NCBI RefSeq assembly: GCF_003340345.1
Contig: NZ_PPTQ01000008.1
Coordinates: 1-64,000, forward strand
Direction of reading: 5' to 3'
Length of the DNA: 64,000 nt
Source of the DNA: Paraeggerthella hongkongensis
GTDB lineage: Bacteria; Actinomycetota; Coriobacteriia; Coriobacteriales; Eggerthellaceae
Part shown: positions 24 to 63,348 of the stretch, in pieces
Layout: each line of letters begins with the position of its first letter
Position numbering within the stretch: the first letter of the stretch is position 1
Program-made: the position numbers and the translations under genes
Notes under the pieces: generated by a model
What the model was told of the DNA's origin: nothing
What the model saw: only the letters and a program-made list of their open reading frames with translations
Databases searched by the model: none

Positions 24-165
24 TGTCAAAACGGACGAGTTTTGCGGCGGTTTTTCGCCTTGTCGGGGCTATGCCGCTACAAGTGTTTTACATCGTGCCT
101 GATCAATGGGCTGTCACCTTGCATTATCCTTATCTGAGGACCAGCAAAACTCGTCCGTTTTGACA
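24..165 (+). repeat. 142-bp dispersed element, copy 1
   Basis: This is one of five copies of exactly 142 bp. It begins TGTCAAAACGGACGAG and ends with the inverted complement, giving 22-bp terminal inverted repeats. A small GGCG/CGCC hairpin follows the left arm, and the right third (TATCTGAGGACCAG and onward) is conserved in all copies. In this copy the inverted repeat continues outward: bases 1-45 are the exact reverse complement of 144-188, so the arms are at least 45 bp and may extend past the window edge. No coding frame is shared between copies. No target-site duplication is visible. It could be a MITE-like element or a structured RNA gene. Confidence 0.85.
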
Positions 166-2255: not shown

Positions 2256-5200
2256 CTACGACACCCGACCTCGATCCACCGTGTACGTCGCGTCGGCCAC
2301 CGACGCCGTCGACGCACGGTGGCTCACCAGCACGATGGTCTTTCCCTCGCGGCCGTCAAGCAGCGCCTTGAGCACGGCCGCTTCGTTCAAGCTGTCGAGG
2401 TTCGACGTCGGCTCGTCCAACAGCACGAACGGCGCATCGTGCAAAAACACGCGCGCCAGGCCGATGCGCTGGCGCTCGCCTCCTGACAGCGTATCGCCCA
2501 ATTCGCCTACCGGTGTGTCCAAACCCCGGGGAAGCCGCTCGACCAGGCTGGTCAACGACGCCTTGTCGCATGCCGCTTGCAGTTCGTCTTCCGTCGCATC
2601 CGGCTTCGCAAGCATGATGTTGTCCCGCACGGAGCCTGCGAACAGGTGGGTTTCCTGGGTCATGTAGCCCTGCATCGCGCGCAGGCTTTCCGTGTTCACG
2701 CGGCGCACGTCGGTGCCAGACACCTCAACTACGCCGCGGGTCGCATCCCAGAAGCGCATGAACAGCTTGCACAGGGTCGACTTGCCCGATCCGCTCCTGC
2801 CGGCCAAGTGCACGATCGATCCCGGCTCGATGCGCACGTCCACGTTGTCGAGCACCGCGACGTCTCCGTAGGAAAAGTCCACGCCACGCGCGCTTGCGCC
2901 CAAGAACTCCGACACGTCCGCACCGTCGAGCACGTCATCGGTCTGAGGACGCTCGTCCAGAAGATCGAGAACCCGCGCGCCGCTGGCCAGCGTCTGCTGC
3001 AGCGTCGAGCCCAGGTTCGCCACCGCGATCACCGGCCCGAACGACGACATGAGCGCCGACGAGGCGACGATGGCGGCACCCGGAGAGAGCTGGCCCTTCG
3101 CCACCAGCGTACCCGCAGCCAGCACCATGACGACGTCGAGCGCCAGCACAAGCGCGTTCACGCCCGCCAAAGCGACCGAAGCGCGCCCCTTGAGGCGAAC
3201 CTCGTCGCACTCCAACAGCTTCGTGCGCTCAGCCAGCTCGCGCACGCGATCGCCCGCCCGCCCGAACTGGAGCGTTTCGCGCAGTCCGCGCAGGCTGTCC
3301 AACACGAACGCGTTCATCGACCCCAGCCCCTCGCGCACCGCCTGACCGCTTTCTCCGGCAGCCAGCGACGACACGAACGGAGCCACGACGCCCACCAGCG
3401 CATACGAAGCCAAAGCCAAAACACCCAGCAACGGCGAGAACCAGCCGATGAACGCCGCCATGCCCAAGGACACCAGCAGCGCGATCAGCGCAGGTGACAG
3501 CGTATGCGCGTAGAAAACCTCCAGGAGCTCGATGTCCGATGTGACAAGCGACACAAGATCACCTTTGTCGCGGCCCTCGAGCTTCGCCGGCACCAGACGT
3601 CGCAGCGCAGCGAACACCTTGTCGCGCACGAGCGCAAGCAGCTTGAAAGCAAGATAATGGTTGCACAACTGCTCGCCGTAGCGCAAAGGGCCGCGCGCGA
3701 CGCCGCACACCGCCACCAGGACCAACGCCGTCCCAAGCCCCACGCCCTGCGGCAGCCCCGCCGCATCGGCCAGCGCGAACGCAGCCAGAACCGTAAGGAA
3801 AATGGCAGCGCCGAAGCCCAGCACGCCCAGCACCGCCGCCAGCACCATCCACGGAAGCAGCGGTTTCACCAGGCCCACAAGCCGCATCATCACGGCCAGG
3901 TGAGAGCGGCGCGGCGCAGTTGCGAACGAAGAAGCGGCCGATGACGGCGCATCTTCCGCACTCGAGGGCGTCGCTTCCCCGCCTTCGGCATCGCCCGCAC
4001 CGTCATCCCCGTTCGCACCCGAAGCTTCGCCTTCGCTCGCGCTGGCGAACCGCTCCAATGAAACCTGCTGGCGCCACAAACGTGCGAACGCGCCGTCGCG
4101 CGCCAGCAGTTCGTCGCATGCGCCCGATTCGGCCACGCGGCCATCGTCGAGGACGTAGATGCGGTCGGCCGACGCCACGGCGGACAGCCGGTGCGTGATC
4201 ATGATGACGGTTTTTTCGCGCGCAAGGGCATGCACCACGCGCACGATGGCGCGCTCGCTTTCGGCATCGACGTTCGACGTCGCCTCGTCGAACACGTACA
4301 CGGGCGTATCGTGCAGAAGGGCGCGCGCCAAAGCCAAGCGCTGCCGCTGTCCGCCGGAGAGGTTCGATCCCTGCTCGGCTACAGGAGCATCGAGCCCGCC
4401 CGCCGCACGCACGAACCCGTCCGCTCGACAGCGCTCGAGCACCGCCCACATTTCGGCATCGCTTGCCTGCGGGTCGGCCATGAGCAGGTTCGATCGCACG
4501 GATCCTTTGAACAGGTAGCTTGCATACGAAACCACGGTCACGGTGCGCGCCGCCGATGCTTGCGATACGCAGCCAAGCGGCACCCCGGCCAGCTCGACCT
4601 CCCCGGTGAATCCCGCGTTGCGTCCGCACAGAACGCCCGCGAGCGTCGACTTGCCCGACCCGCTTTCGCCCACGATGCCCGTGAACGACCCCGCCGGAGC
4701 GTCGAAATCCACGTCCGAGAGAACCGTTCGCTCGCCGTCGTACGAATACCCCACGCCACGGCACGTCACGCCCGCCTGTTCCGATTCGACGACCCGCGAC
4801 CCTCGCGCCGTCTCCGGCGCGTCCAGAATCGAGAACATCTTGTCAGCGGCGGCCATGCCGTTCATCGCCGTATGGAAGAACGACCCCAAGGTGCGCAGCG
4901 GAATGAAGAACTCGGCCGACAGGAAGATCACCGCGAACGCCGCGAACAGCGGAATCTCCCCGTTCGCGAACTGCACGAGCGCAACCACGATGCCCACCGC
5001 CGCGCCGCCGTACGCGAACACGTCCATCACCGTAACCGAATTGAGCTGCATGCGCAGAAGGCGCATGGTAGCGCGGCGAAACGTCTCGGCTTCGTCGTTC
5101 ATCAAGCGATGACGCTCCTCATCGGCCCGGTATATCTTGAGCGTGGTCAGCCCCTGCAAGTTCTCCAAGAACGATTCGCCCAAATCGGTGTACGCGCCCC

Positions 5201-5771
5201 AGTACTGGCGCATAGCGCGCTTGGCGATCCTCTGCACCGCGACGATGGAAAGCGGGATCAGCGGCACGCACGCAAGCAAGGCCGATGCGGCGGGAAGGCT
5301 CAACGGCGCCAGGCAGGCGAACAGCGTGAGCGGCGCCAGCACGGCGTAGACCAGCTGGGGAACATACTGCCCGAAATAGCTTTCAAGCTGCTCGCAGCCC
5401 TCCACGCTCACCTGGACCGCTTCGGCAGTGGACACGCGCTCGGAGTACGCAGGCCCCATGCGCACCAGCTTCTCGTACACCTGCTGGCGCACCTCGCGCT
5501 TGGCGGCCTGCGCAGCGGCAAGCCCGCAACGCTGCGCGCCGGCCAAACACGCCATCCGCACCGCGATGGCGGCGGCTCCCGCGCATCCCAGGCCGATCAG
5601 CCAAGAGCCCAGATCCTTCACACCCTCGAACCACGCTTGCACGAACAAGCCGATAAACACCATAAGCGCCACGTTCGCGGCGAGAGCCGCCCACTGCAGC
5701 GCGACGTTGACAACAATGGGCCCGCGCGCGGCGGGCACCATACGCAAAAGACGCATGCTGAACACGAACAT
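2256..5771 (-). CDS. cydDC: fused CydDC-type ABC exporter (two TMD-NBD halves)
   Basis: A single 1171-residue polypeptide holding two complete half-transporters. The first half is CydD-like: membrane domain to about residue 320, Walker A GESGSGKST near 372, signature NLSGGQRQR near 471 and Walker B VYVFDEATSNVD. An Ala/Ser/Glu/Asp-rich linker spans about 565-625. The second half has Walker A GRSGSGKST, signature TLSGGERQR and Walker B FVLLDEPTSNLD. In bacteria CydDC exports thiols and supports cytochrome bd and heme assembly. Separate cydD and cydC genes are usual; fusion is known in some Actinobacteria. The start abuts the stop of the DUF454 gene, so translation is probably coupled. The exported substrate here is not proved, and no cydAB lies in the window. 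Confidence 0.8.
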   Translation of the reverse strand: MFVFSMRLLRMVPAARGPIVVNVALQWAALAANVALMVFIGLFVQAWFEGVKDLGSWLIGLGCAGAAAIAVRMACLAGAQRCGLAAAQAAKREVRQQVYEKLVRMGPAYSERVSTAEAVQVSVEGCEQLESYFGQYVPQLVYAVLAPLTLFACLAPLSLPAASALLACVPLIPLSIVAVQRIAKRAMRQYWGAYTDLGESFLENLQGLTTLKIYRADEERHRLMNDEAETFRRATMRLLRMQLNSVTVMDVFAYGGAAVGIVVALVQFANGEIPLFAAFAVIFLSAEFFIPLRTLGSFFHTAMNGMAAADKMFSILDAPETARGSRVVESEQAGVTCRGVGYSYDGERTVLSDVDFDAPAGSFTGIVGESGSGKSTLAGVLCGRNAGFTGEVELAGVPLGCVSQASAARTVTVVSYASYLFKGSVRSNLLMADPQASDAEMWAVLERCRADGFVRAAGGLDAPVAEQGSNLSGGQRQRLALARALLHDTPVYVFDEATSNVDAESERAIVRVVHALAREKTVIMITHRLSAVASADRIYVLDDGRVAESGACDELLARDGAFARLWRQQVSLERFASASEGEASGANGDDGAGDAEGGEATPSSAEDAPSSAASSFATAPRRSHLAVMMRLVGLVKPLLPWMVLAAVLGVLGFGAAIFLTVLAAFALADAAGLPQGVGLGTALVLVAVCGVARGPLRYGEQLCNHYLAFKLLALVRDKVFAALRRLVPAKLEGRDKGDLVSLVTSDIELLEVFYAHTLSPALIALLVSLGMAAFIGWFSPLLGVLALASYALVGVVAPFVSSLAAGESGQAVREGLGSMNAFVLDSLRGLRETLQFGRAGDRVRELAERTKLLECDEVRLKGRASVALAGVNALVLALDVVMVLAAGTLVAKGQLSPGAAIVASSALMSSFGPVIAVANLGSTLQQTLASGARVLDLLDERPQTDDVLDGADVSEFLGASARGVDFSYGDVAVLDNVDVRIEPGSIVHLAGRSGSGKSTLCKLFMRFWDATRGVVEVSGTDVRRVNTESLRAMQGYMTQETHLFAGSVRDNIMLAKPDATEDELQAACDKASLTSLVERLPRGLDTPVGELGDTLSGGERQRIGLARVFLHDAPFVLLDEPTSNLDSLNEAAVLKALLDGREGKTIVLVSHRASTASVADATYTVDRGRVS

Positions 5772-22506: not shown

Positions 22507-22648
22507 TGTCAAAACGGACGAGTTTTGCGGGGGTTTTTGCGCTTTCGCCCGAAGGTTGTGCGCCGAGGTTTTTTATCGTCCCAGGTCACAGAGTCGACGG
22601 TTGCTTTTATTCTCGTTTGAGGACCAGCAAAACTCGTCCGTTTTGACA
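22507..22648 (+). repeat. 142-bp dispersed element, copy 2
   Basis: Same length, termini and right third (TTTGAGGACCAGCAAAAC) as the other copies, with perfectly complementary 22-bp terminal repeats. The middle about 70 bases is the most diverged of the set. It lies between the ends of the convergent lipid-kinase and terC genes. Confidence 0.9.
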
Positions 22649-32651: not shown

Positions 32652-33923
32652 TCACACCCGCACGTAATCGTTCGCGACCGGCTCCAAGCCGTGCGCGCGC
32701 AGAGCCGCCGAAACGGTCTTCACGTCGCGGTCGTCCGCTATCTCGAACTGATCGTCGCCCGCCGATGCAGCATGCTCGTCTTCGGCAGCGGCGTGCTCGC
32801 CGACGCCCGTCGACACGCCGGCGGATATCTTCGTTGCCGCAATGCCCATGACCCGATCGCGGAACCCCTGCCGCTCGCGCGACGATATGGTTATGCCCGC
32901 CTGGGGCAGGAACAGGCGGTACGCGCACATGACCTGCAAAAGCCTGCGCTCGCCCACGCCGCGCGAGCCCAAGCTCTCGTTGCCCGCGATAGGCCGCAAA
33001 CGCGGACAGGAAAGCGAGAGCTCCGCCGCCGGGTACGCGCGTTGCAGAAGCCATGCGTGCATCCCGCACGCGAACGCGTCGCGCCGCGCATCGCCCAATC
33101 CCAGAAGCGCGCCGAAGGCCACGCCTCGCATACCCGCGCGCAGCGCGCGCTCCTGGGCGTTCGCGCGGTACGGGAACACGCGCTTGCGTCCGGCTCGGTG
33201 CAGCTTGCCGTACAGAGCGGGATCGTAGGTTTCCTGGAACACGGTCACGTAGTCCGCGCCGCTTCGATGCAGCAGCGCGTACTCGTCCTCGTTCAGCGGG
33301 TACACCTCCACGCCCACCGTGCGGAAGCGCTCCGACGCAAGCCGGCACGCTTCGGCGATGTAGGCGGGGTCGGTGCGTTCGCGATCCTCCCCCGTGAGCA
33401 GCAGGACGTCCTCCAAGCCGGTTTCGGCGATAGCGTCAAGCTCGCGCACGATGCCGCGCTGGTCGAGCTGGGCGCGGCAGATGTCGTTTTTGCGATTGAA
33501 CCCGCAGTACACGCAGTGGTTGTCGCAATAGTTCGCCAGATACAGCGGGGTGAACAGGTACGCCGTGCTGCCGAACCAGCGACGGCGGACGCGTTGGGCG
33601 GCGGCGGCCATCTTCTCCAAAAACGGCTCGGCTGCCGGAGAAAGCAGCGCCCCGAAGTCTTCAGGGGAAAGCCGCTCGGTCGCCAAGGCGCGGCGGACGT
33701 CAGCGGCGGTCACGGATGCGAAATCGAAGGCGGACGCCCGCTCGAGCACTTCTGAGATGACCGGGGAGTCAAGCGCATCCATGTCGGGAAGGTACGAAAG
33801 CGGGTCGATGCCGCAATCGCGCGCAACGTCCGACGGATCGGCCGCCTGCGCGCGCGAAAAGCCAGGGGCCTTCCAGCCAGGTTCGCCCCATGCGGGCGCG
33901 TTCAAGCGTTGTTCGTCTTGCAC
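32652..33923 (-). CDS. thiH: 2-iminoacetate synthase ThiH
   Basis: A 423-residue radical SAM enzyme splitting tyrosine to dehydroglycine for thiazole synthesis. The cluster motif is CDNHCVYCGFNRKNDI near residue 120, followed by LLLTGEDRERTDPAYIAEA and VTVFQETYDPALYGKLHRAG. The C-terminal end carries an Ala/Asp-rich insert (EHAAAEDEHAASAGDD) before a normal finish. The start is GTG at 33923, eight bases after the thiG stop, with AGGGGGCGCC upstream. An open frame continues upstream through thiG but is not a fusion; thiG is in another frame. Confidence 0.9.
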   Translation of the reverse strand: MQDEQRLNAPAWGEPGWKAPGFSRAQAADPSDVARDCGIDPLSYLPDMDALDSPVISEVLERASAFDFASVTAADVRRALATERLSPEDFGALLSPAAEPFLEKMAAAAQRVRRRWFGSTAYLFTPLYLANYCDNHCVYCGFNRKNDICRAQLDQRGIVRELDAIAETGLEDVLLLTGEDRERTDPAYIAEACRLASERFRTVGVEVYPLNEDEYALLHRSGADYVTVFQETYDPALYGKLHRAGRKRVFPYRANAQERALRAGMRGVAFGALLGLGDARRDAFACGMHAWLLQRAYPAAELSLSCPRLRPIAGNESLGSRGVGERRLLQVMCAYRLFLPQAGITISSRERQGFRDRVMGIAATKISAGVSTGVGEHAAAEDEHAASAGDDQFEIADDRDVKTVSAALRAHGLEPVANDYVRV

Positions 33924-33931
33924 GGCGCCCC

Positions 33932-34705
33932 CTAATCCGCCAGGAACCCGGTCAAAGGCGACGAGGCCTCGGCGCGCTCGAGCACGCGCCCGAATCCCGC
34001 GCGGTACGCCGCGCGCCCCGCTTCGACCGCATGCTTGAACGCAGCGGCCATGAGCGCGACGTCGCCGGCGGTTGCCACAGCCGTGTTCGCCATGACGGCG
34101 GCGGCCCCCAGCTCCATGGCTTCGCACGCCTGTGAAGGGCGCCCGATGCCGGCGTCCACGATAACGGGCACGTCCACTTCGTCGATGATGATCTTGATGA
34201 AATCGCGCGCGGCAAGCCCCTTGTTCGAGCCGATGGGAGCGCCCAGCGGCATCACCGCGGCCGCGCCGGCGCTCACCAGGTCGCGCGCCGTGGTAAGGTC
34301 GGGAAACATGTAGGGAAGCACGACGAAGCCCTCGTTCGCCAAAAGCTCCGTAGCGCGCACCGTTTCGGCATTGTCGGGCATGAGGTACGCCGCATCGCGG
34401 ATGACCTCGACCTTGACGAAGTCCCCGCAGCCCATGGCGCGCGCCAGGCGAGCGATGCGCACGGCTTCCTCGGCCGTGCGCGCGCCCGACGTGTTCGGCA
34501 GCAGCGTCACCCCTTCCGGAATGGCGTCCAGGATGTTGTCTTCCTGTCCCGTGTTGGCGCGACGGACCGCCAGCGTCACCATCTGGGCGCCGGCGTCGCG
34601 CACCGCAGCCTCCACCAGATCGAGGTTGAACTTCCCCGATCCCAAAATGAAGCGCGACGTGAACGTGCGCCCTCCAAGCGACCATGCATCAGGTTCGTAC
34701 CCCAT
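33932..34705 (-). CDS. thiG: thiazole synthase ThiG
   Basis: A 257-residue TIM-barrel enzyme that builds the thiazole ring from deoxyxylulose phosphate, ThiS thiocarboxylate and dehydroglycine. Family features are [12 protein letters not shown] near residue 15, the Schiff-base Lys region [11 protein letters not shown] near 96, [18 protein letters not shown] near 148 and [19 protein letters not shown] near 184. It is 75 bp downstream of thiF on the same strand. Confidence 0.95.
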
Positions 34706-36418: not shown

Positions 36419-36560
36419 TGTCAAAACGGACGAGTTTTGCTGGTCCTTAAGCAAGGATAATCACAGGCAGTAAGTCTCTGACCAGGCATGATGAAAAACA
36501 CCTTTCGTCGCATCACTTCGGCAAGGCGGAAAATCGCCGCAAAACTCAACTTTTTTGACA
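36419..36560 (-). repeat. 142-bp dispersed element, copy 3 (inverted)
   Basis: The only copy in the opposite orientation. The right end is intact (GAGTTTTGCTGGTCCTTAAG read on plus), while the left terminus is decayed (TGTCAAAAAAGTTGAGTTTT), so its terminal repeats no longer pair perfectly. The GGCGATTTTCCGCC hairpin is kept. It lies between the tRNA unit and an integrase remnant. Confidence 0.88.
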
Positions 36561-42245: not shown

Positions 42246-43430
<1,185 letters not shown>

Positions 43431-61433: not shown

Positions 61434-61575
61434 TGTCAAAACGATCGAGTTTTGCGGCGGTTTTCCGCCTTTTTATGATTGCTCGCCAACACACGATTTT
61501 CATTGTCCCAGTTCAGAAGCTTATCCGCTTGCTTTATCCTGGTTTGAGGACCAGCAAAACTCGTCCGTTTTGACA
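61434..61575 (+). repeat. 142-bp dispersed element, copy 4
   Basis: Same length and ends. The left arm has two changes (CGATCG for CGGACG), shared with copy 5, so the terminal repeats pair imperfectly. Copies 4 and 5 also share CCCAGTTCAGAAGCTTATC in the centre, making them the closest pair. It lies just past the stop of the nuclease-like gene at 61642. Confidence 0.9.
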
Positions 61576-61641: not shown

Positions 61642-62625
61642 TCACAGCACTGCGGCTCTCAGCGTGCGGCACGCTTGCGCGAAACCATCGTACGGACGAA
61701 CCCGCTCGCCTAAAGCAGCAGCAAGCTGACGCGCCGCCTTGTCGAAGCGCGCAGGATCCATGATCTGGTGATTCGTCATCGTGCGCACCGACACCCCCAG
61801 ATGGGACAAGTCATCGCGACGTTCCGAATCCCTTGCGATCCGATAAGGACCGGTATGGTACTCGTCGCTTTCGTACTCAACGTCGAGCTTCGCTTGCGAC
61901 CAGTACAGATCGCATAAGTAGTATCCCTTTTCGATGCAATCTCGCCGCGCGTCCGGCACATCCATTCGATAATTCAATTCGGGATGCGAAAGCGCATAGC
62001 CGCCCATTCTTCGCGGAAGGCAAAGCAGCAACGTCAAAGCCGTCTCGCGCGGCGAAGCGGAACAGGCAACCAAATGCTTGAGGACTCTTCGAGCCGCAGC
62101 CGCGCCAGGAATTCCTCGTGCAGATTCGACGTATCGAGCAAGGGCCGATACCGTGGTCAAAAGCATGGGCCTCCCGTACCGCGTGTGCCCATCGCAGTTG
62201 CGCGCGTACGTTCCGCACAGCTCGAATCCCAAGGCAAGAAGCTCCAACGCAGGCAAGACGGAAGCCATCTGCACGAAGCACAGCTCCGGCGAGCTCGCGT
62301 ACAGATCTTCGCCCAATCGCACGAATGATCCAGGAGGAAACGAGCGCGCATGAACATGGCAGCGCACGCCGACGCGGTCGATCCGATCGCACGTACGGGG
62401 CACGACCACATGCACGGGCGATTCGCGAGAAACGCGCCTGAGCGGCAATCCGCTTTCAAGAAGCAGGGAATCCCCGCGAGCGCGATCGACATCTACGGCC
62501 TTGCGGCCCTGGAAAAACGCCGCGGTATCGGCATCGCGGCTGCGAGCCCGCGCCGCCTTGTCCGCATCGCCGATAAACTCCGACGATCCGACGGGATGCC
62601 GAACGCGTTTTCCAGAGCAGGGCAC
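61642..62625 (-). CDS. DUF559/Vsr-like nuclease-domain protein
   Basis: A 327-residue protein from GTG 62625; the start is uncertain and could be further in. The middle part (SFPPGSFVRLGEDLYASSPELCFVQMAS near residue 95) has the winged-helix or AbiEi-like look of related coriobacterial proteins. The C-terminal part resembles a DUF559/Vsr nuclease: DCIEKGYYLCDLYW near 234, KLDVEYESDEYHT near 252 (D..E layout) and RDSERRDDLSHLGVSVRTMTNHQ near 268. No partner gene is next to it. It lies between repeat copies 4 and 5. Confidence 0.6.
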   Translation of the reverse strand: MPCSGKRVRHPVGSSEFIGDADKAARARSRDADTAAFFQGRKAVDVDRARGDSLLLESGLPLRRVSRESPVHVVVPRTCDRIDRVGVRCHVHARSFPPGSFVRLGEDLYASSPELCFVQMASVLPALELLALGFELCGTYARNCDGHTRYGRPMLLTTVSALARYVESARGIPGAAAARRVLKHLVACSASPRETALTLLLCLPRRMGGYALSHPELNYRMDVPDARRDCIEKGYYLCDLYWSQAKLDVEYESDEYHTGPYRIARDSERRDDLSHLGVSVRTMTNHQIMDPARFDKAARQLAAALGERVRPYDGFAQACRTLRAAVL

Positions 62626-62659
62626 CCGAAGGCGGGCGTCGAACCTTCCCGACCGTCAA

Positions 62660-62820
62660 CATTCCAACTCTGTTATATAGCTGATGTATATAGTCATATA
62701 TTAAGACTAGCAAGGGTAACGCCCCTCATGTTGCGGGCAATCGTTTCGTTATCTTCACGTTATCTTGCGCTGGATTCCTGCTAGATTCCCGCTAGACCCG
62801 TGCTAGATTCCTGCAAGGTT
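62660..62820. other. AT-rich patch with short degenerate repeats
   Basis: Bases 62660-62710 (TTATATAGCTGATGTATATAG) are strikingly AT-rich and probably hold the promoter of the nuclease-like gene. At 62768-62816, GCTAGATTCCTGCTAGATTC-type words repeat with a 12-13 base period. Confidence 0.5.
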
Positions 62821-63206: not shown

Positions 63207-63348
63207 TGTCAAAACGATCGAGTTTTGCGGCGATTTTCCGCCTTCTCGGGGTTGTTCGCTGATGCGTGGTTTTCGTTATCCCAGTTCAGAAGCTTATCGA
63301 CTTGCTTTATCCTGGTTTGAGGACCAGCAAAACTCGTCCGTTTTGACA
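63207..63348 (+). repeat. 142-bp dispersed element, copy 5
   Basis: Same length, termini and right third as the others; nearest to copy 4, including the CGATCG change in the left arm. It lies between the 18-bp array and the pyrophosphatase gene. Confidence 0.9.

Follow-up and report, generated by a model that had tools for sequence, protein, structure and literature searches.

A dispersed 142-bp inverted-repeat element of Paraeggerthella, selected in place and probably paired with a Vsr/DUF559-like nuclease

The 142-bp sequence that occurs five times in the window (the whole stretch of 64,000 nucleotides analysed here) is probably the dispersed cognate site of a Vsr/DUF559-like nuclease, in a partnership like that of REPINs and RAYTs. 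The organisation is an analogue of REPIN-RAYT, and the pairing with this nuclease family is what appears to be new. We observe the anatomy of the element, the selection acting on its copies in place, a core common to different genera, the neighbourhood of nuclease genes and a one-to-one pairing of element families with these genes. Two things were out of reach of the sequence-only reading in which the repeat had been described: that a nuclease gene separates two of the copies, and that sister families exist whose arms differ.

The window belongs to the genome of a gut bacterium of the genus Paraeggerthella (G000; 2.86 Mb in 53 contigs), which was compared with P. hongkongensis DSM 16106 (G001), the sole congener in the genome collection. 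The five window copies, here called family A, had been described as exactly 142 bp long and intergenic, and both statements hold, as every copy lies between predicted genes (Table 1). With the copy at 63207 as query, the other four are aligned end to end and without gaps at E = 4e-45 to 4e-19; these matches, together with the ~37 copies in the genome, exclude chance likeness. All five start with TGTCA and end with TGACA, and the right arm, GCAAAACTCGTCCGTTTTGACA, is the same throughout. The left arm is its perfect inverse in 24-165 and 22507-22648, is two bases off in 61434 and 63207, and about five off in 36419, in agreement with the 22-bp TGTCA-ended inverted repeats of the earlier description. 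Two further features had been ascribed to all copies and are each found in four: the right-third sequence GAGGACCAG, which reads AAGGACCAG in 36419, and the hairpin GGCG.TTTT..CGCC, in place of which 22507 reads GGGGGTTTTTGCGC, with no pairing.

Each arm is a palindrome in itself, CAAAAC-N6-GTTTTG, which is the usual look of a dimer site, and the two inverted sites are 118 bp apart from centre to centre (~11 helical turns). The ends do look protein-recognised, as the earlier suggestion of an enzyme acting on them implied. Two conserved motifs lie between the arms: a core that reads GTTTTnCATnnTnCCWGGTCA in columns 62–82 and is often followed by nAnGCTTG, and TTATYCT in columns 101-107; column 114 is an invariant A. 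Positions 1-23 of the window, at the contig start, are the exact inverse of 166-188. Since the P. hongkongensis orthologue (L044) has no such inverse, the left flank of the copy at 24-165 is probably an assembly fold-back. Among the other genes of the window, one 1171-aa frame (2256-5771, minus strand) has matches to CydD as well as to CydC and reads as a fused CydDC exporter, and a 677-aa open stretch (32652-34685, minus strand) is probably over-extended, since its match to ThiH is confined to the second half.

Table 1. Positions of the family A copies, their conserved parts and the partner gene in the window.
Feature	Position	Strand	Remarks
Family A copy 1	24..165	+	142 bp; contig start; orthologue L044 in P. 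hongkongensis
Family A copy 2	22507..22648	+	142 bp; convergent genes on either side; orthologue L070 (141 bp)
Family A copy 3	36419..36560	-	142 bp; divergent left arm; orthologue L043 occupies the corresponding position
Family A copy 4	61434..61575	+	142 bp; on one side of the nuclease gene; P. hongkongensis orthologue L069 split by an IS3-family-like insertion
Family A copy 5	63207..63348	+	142 bp; on the other side of the nuclease gene; orthologue L066
Conserved core (columns 62-92) of copy 1	85..115	+	
Conserved core of copy 2	22568..22598	+	
Conserved core of copy 3	36469..36499	-	
Conserved core of copy 4	61495..61525	+	
Conserved core of copy 5	63268..63298	+	
Left arm of copy 5	63207..63228	+	palindromic in itself, CAAAAC-N6-GTTTTG
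Right arm of copy 5	63327..63348	+	the site in inverted copy
Second conserved motif TTATYCT (columns 101-107) of copy 5	63307..63313	+	
Partner gene, Vsr/DUF559-like nuclease	61642..62697	-	between the copies at 61434 and 63207; degenerate in the window genome

Family A numbers about 37 copies in the window genome and 37 in P. hongkongensis. The fixed length holds across both species: 66 of the 74 copies are 142 bp, four are 141 bp, two are 152 bp and one is 139 bp, while one is cut by a contig end. The two 152-bp copies form a single orthologous pair, and their ten added bases are near one helical turn. Matching flanks place 31 copies at corresponding positions in the two species. Elsewhere, blastn against 59 further genomes from the family and order gave no family A copy, and a scan of 84,980 named genomes, the window's own left aside, detected the right-end pattern in P. 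hongkongensis only. Viral contigs contained neither the arms nor relatives of the nuclease.

Some individual loci are unusual. The flanks (600 bp) of the orthologous pair L003/L065 (G000:C2:120287 and G001:C11:60068) are 99.7-99.8% identical, compared to 80-97% for most others, and this pair perhaps reflects a recent transfer. The whole copy L031 (G000:C3:16044-16266) is adjoined by two more solo left arms at a spacing of ~40 bp, and at L088 (G000:C11, about 42300-42560) an element of family B (see below) is directly followed by a solo family A right end. Six family A copies from both species (L085, L025, L052, L069, L083 and L084) are interrupted by an insertion that its sequence would place in or near the IS3 family, always at the same point of the left arm, between CGAG and TTTTGCGG. 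The insertion (in L085 from G000:C34:104311 onward) encodes a 479-aa transposase-like frame, and this IS3-family-like element seems to target the family A element.

The copies of family A are under selection in place, on their motifs as well as on their length. Substitutions were counted in 26 orthologous pairs, IS-disturbed pairs being left out. The motif columns changed in 13 of 1155 comparisons (1.1%) and the spacers (columns 37-61 and 83-100) in 177 of 903 (19.6%; p = 9e-52), a contrast that is somewhat favoured by the choice of motif columns after the alignment had been seen and that holds with A/T positions alone. Columns 14-21 (GAGTTTTG) show zero changes over 21 pairs. The flanks have a substitution rate of 16%, and the regions directly outside the elements are not conserved. 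Indels amount to six per 397 substitutions within the element, compared to 97 per 499 in the flanks (p = 1e-16), and are thus 13-fold rarer inside. As so few indels accompany the many spacer substitutions, we conclude that the spacers are free to drift in sequence, but not in length. The substitution and indel tests bear out the earlier proposal that a fixed length with a diverged middle reflects selection on overall architecture. A purely selfish, decaying repeat would not show such selection in place.

Comparison of the proteins encoded beside elements in different genera identified a partner gene. In the window genome its frame has an in-frame stop after 13 codons; in P. hongkongensis the gene is intact (C12:76691-77752) and lies between two copies, one of them IS-split. 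In G080 the homologous gene is located between two elements, at C1:2239222 and 2241135; in G007 it adjoins an element. The protein has a conserved N-terminal start, HxSALEYWR, and the C-terminal signature CDLYWPxxxLxxEYDSxxxHxGxxRxxxDAxRRxxLxxLG, with the candidate catalytic residues D220, E231, S234, H238, D247 and R250 invariant in 15 aligned sequences. On these motifs we assign it as Vsr/DUF559-like. The DUF559 cut-off of Pfam is passed by two of the 14 proteins scanned, and most others give sub-threshold matches (DUF559 or REase_MTES_1575); a profile of the nuclease aligns the same residues with PvuRts1I and the mobile-intron nuclease 3r3p, below significance. A single-sequence structure model had a mean pLDDT of 34 and was unusable.

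Of 63 genomes sampled from the order, 59 encode relatives of the nuclease, often 5 to 15 each; elsewhere in the class, a single genome among 57 does. None of Pfam, NCBIfam, PADLOC and PHROGs has a model that covers the whole partner family, and Rfam returned tRNAs and weak, implausible matches only, none credible for the element; the earlier remark that no named family matches is in keeping with these searches.

The core is not confined to family A. Model R1, a sequence-only model of columns 53-120, detects every family A copy as well as further families of inverted repeats in those genomes. Family B has the arms GCGCACGAAAAACCGCC.TCGCTGGCAGGTTTTGACGG, and eight copies measured 205 or 206 bp; the family C element, seen twice in P. 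hongkongensis, is 141 bp long, and the arms of family D end AATGTTGCG. A core match at E ≤ 0.02 was obtained in 22 of 48 Eggerthellaceae genera, compared to ~1.4 chance genomes expected among 71, and some of the single weak matches may be due to chance. Many of these cores lie within inverted-repeat elements whose arms are quite unlike those of family A but whose length is close to it, 142 bp in G094 and 141 bp in G075, G066 and G080, with other fixed lengths in other genera. G080 contains 21 distinct copies of 140-142 bp, whose arms AAAAATCGCTCATGTATGTGATTT are near-invariant and whose middle is nearly random apart from the core. An armless solo core upstream of a tRNA gene is kept in both Paraeggerthella species (L136, G000:C34:52896; L141, G001:C4:42498).

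Element and nuclease gene are associated systematically. An ungapped test for inverted repeats spanning 110-230 bp located an element beside 32 of 50 Eggerthellaceae nuclease genes, some having one on both sides, and left 18 loci with none. The corresponding controls, 17 window segments and 50 shuffled loci, gave no element at all, and a second control gave one of 17, the single match being a family C element. For two other families of the same order, the figure is 11 of 20 nuclease loci. Within Paraeggerthella, matching arm sequences assign to each element family a nuclease gene of its own: C52 to A, C15 to B, C22 of P. hongkongensis to C, and C1 to D. Two more nuclease genes, C50 and C3, each have elements of their own.

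These relationships could be explained if each palindromic arm were bound by a nuclease dimer and the two inverted sites, 118 bp apart, were held together in a loop with the conserved core inside. Such a looped complex would account for the intolerance of indels. Before the two species diverged, the nuclease may have acted on the elements and in this way dispersed copies into intergenic DNA, and the copies would have been kept since then either as still working binding sites or because loss of a site is harmful. The arms would have co-diverged with the nuclease, giving each genus and each nuclease lineage arms of its own, and the core would have kept a common role. We infer the binding, looping, cutting and spreading by the nuclease from the pattern of the elements and their genes. 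Several observations count against the explanation: the ungapped test left 18 of 50 nuclease loci with no element, neither a clean empty site nor a target duplication was found, no recent movement is evident, and in the window genome family A has kept its elements although its partner gene is broken. Conservation in place, even with a broken partner gene, suggests a host function or a cost of site loss.

We lean towards regarding these systems as an undescribed, order-wide class, in which a restriction-enzyme-like nuclease, rather than a transposase, owns fixed-length palindromic elements recognised via co-evolved arms, with several independent pairs per genome that may be selfish or domesticated. 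The open-access papers searched contained no report of such repeats in this bacterial group. If the proposal is true, dispersed palindromic repeats have a second, unrelated enzyme solution, and the arrangement arises repeatedly. It would also supply a function for a nuclease family of which almost all sampled genomes have several members throughout the order, which comprises gut bacteria including relatives of Eggerthella. Additionally, the persistence of repeat populations becomes testable, here as selection on the motifs and length of each copy in place.

The strongest rival is a looped operator or promoter, in which a protein of the nuclease family or another regulator binds both arms and controls transcription that starts from a promoter-like core, and the copies constitute a regulon. 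It owes this rank to the promoter-like appearance of TATYCT with the invariant A seven bases on; in family A the whole motif, WGGTCA-N19-TATYCT, has promoter-like spacing. Two dimer-like sites at a fixed distance, a sole larger length with an extra 10 bp and the strong constraint in place would all suit such a site. However, the genes downstream are in mixed orientation and some copies lie between convergent genes, TATYCT is missing from family B and many other families, and the DNA directly outside the elements is not conserved. We consider this reading unlikely, though one to be reckoned with. A promoter of host genes was rejected on the mixed gene orientation.

A MITE, that is, a non-autonomous derivative of a DDE transposon with ends (TG...CA termini and 22-bp terminal repeats) recognised by a transposase, had been suggested by the sequence-only reading and now appears improbable. 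The terminal inverted repeats, the many copies and their intergenic location are all consistent with it, as are the TG...CA ends of several element families, but target-site duplications are absent in Paraeggerthella and G080, and no larger element bounded by these arms was found in either genome. That selection in place acts on length and on an internal core, and that this core recurs in families with unrelated ends, also argues against this origin. The classical form was rejected, as neither a target-site duplication nor a parent transposon with these ends was found. What lies between two whole elements is the nuclease gene. Inspection of the flanks of 11 unpaired copies revealed no clean empty site, with unrelated DNA in the other species at the four sites detailed, and no transposition was seen, most copies predating the species split. 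The bases just outside the family A arms are weakly inverted-complementary (3.26 of 6, compared to 2.28 when shuffled, p < 0.001), as if insertion had favoured small palindromes; the effect is absent in G080.

A chromosome-organising site with a nucleoid or segregation role, associated with the nuclease through shared ancestry only, is very improbable. Constraint in place, ~37 intergenic copies and the lack of a fixed orientation to genes would be expected of it, yet the G080 chromosome shows no orientation bias by eye, a single genome can contain several families that differ in their arms, and such a role needs no nuclease partner.

The structured RNA of the sequence-only reading, with the arms as its closing stem, has even slimmer prospects. 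Arms are complementary in every family despite their differing sequences, and single copies fold well. However, columns 10-13 and 130-133 of the family A arms pair in 13 of 61 copies, compared to 11.1 expected by shuffling, and the compensatory changes in stems that an RNA should display are absent from these variable columns. Moreover, the 18- and 25-nt loops take nearly any base with almost no indels, RNAalifold identifies little conserved inner structure, and Rfam gives no support. Based on the variable arm bases, which do not covary, we conclude that family A acts at the DNA level and not as a compensated RNA stem.

Least probable of all is a strict REPIN mobilised by a Y1 (HUH) RAYT transposase: the two inverted palindromic sites, their dispersed and extragenic distribution and an enzyme gene flanked by copies fit, but the flanking enzyme is of another family, Y1_Tnp (PF01797) and with it the defining RAYT are absent from the window genome, both Y1_Tnp genes of P. 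hongkongensis (C8:362 and C28:10830) are not adjacent to a known copy, and the arm TGTCAAAACGGACGAGTTTTGCGG has no tag of the GTAG type, whereas the definition in PMC3733652 places GTAG or CGTC at the foot of the palindrome.

Of the known systems, REPIN-RAYT is the closest arrangement. Invertons resemble the elements in having inverted repeats on either side of a fixed-size, promoter-like segment, whereas all 31 orthologous family A pairs have the same orientation; an invertible promoter was rejected on this ground, the flanks of the unpaired copies also having no flipped partner. Correia elements are MITEs with terminal inverted repeats and many intergenic copies. The enterobacterial RU-1 and RU-2 measure 127 and 168 bp (PMC2759123). 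Family A resembles both in size, terminal inverted repeats and intergenic copy number, but differs in having a conserved inner core and selection against indels, with no target-site duplication and no parent transposon found.

The partner protein has in its C-terminal part the E-x-D...H...D..R signature of Vsr-like, DUF559 and EDxHD nucleases such as 3r3p and PvuRts1I. Unlike these, it has an N-terminal region of its own and is tied to dispersed palindromic elements; it is nearly limited to one order in the class sampled, and no intron or intein was seen with its gene.

In REPIN-RAYT systems, two inverted palindromic repeats form one dispersed extragenic unit, enzyme and repeat co-diverge, and several families occur per genome, each beside its own single-copy enzyme gene (Bertels and Rainey 2011, PMC3116915). 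Family A likewise consists of two inverted palindromic repeats in one extragenic unit, and Paraeggerthella likewise has several families per genome, each with its own enzyme gene, with which the arms would have co-diverged. The enzymes differ, a Vsr/DUF559-like nuclease here in contrast to the Y1 HUH transposase there, and the present elements are distinguished by their fixed lengths of 140-142 or 205-206 bp, by a core that is kept across families and by constraint in place at orthologous sites.
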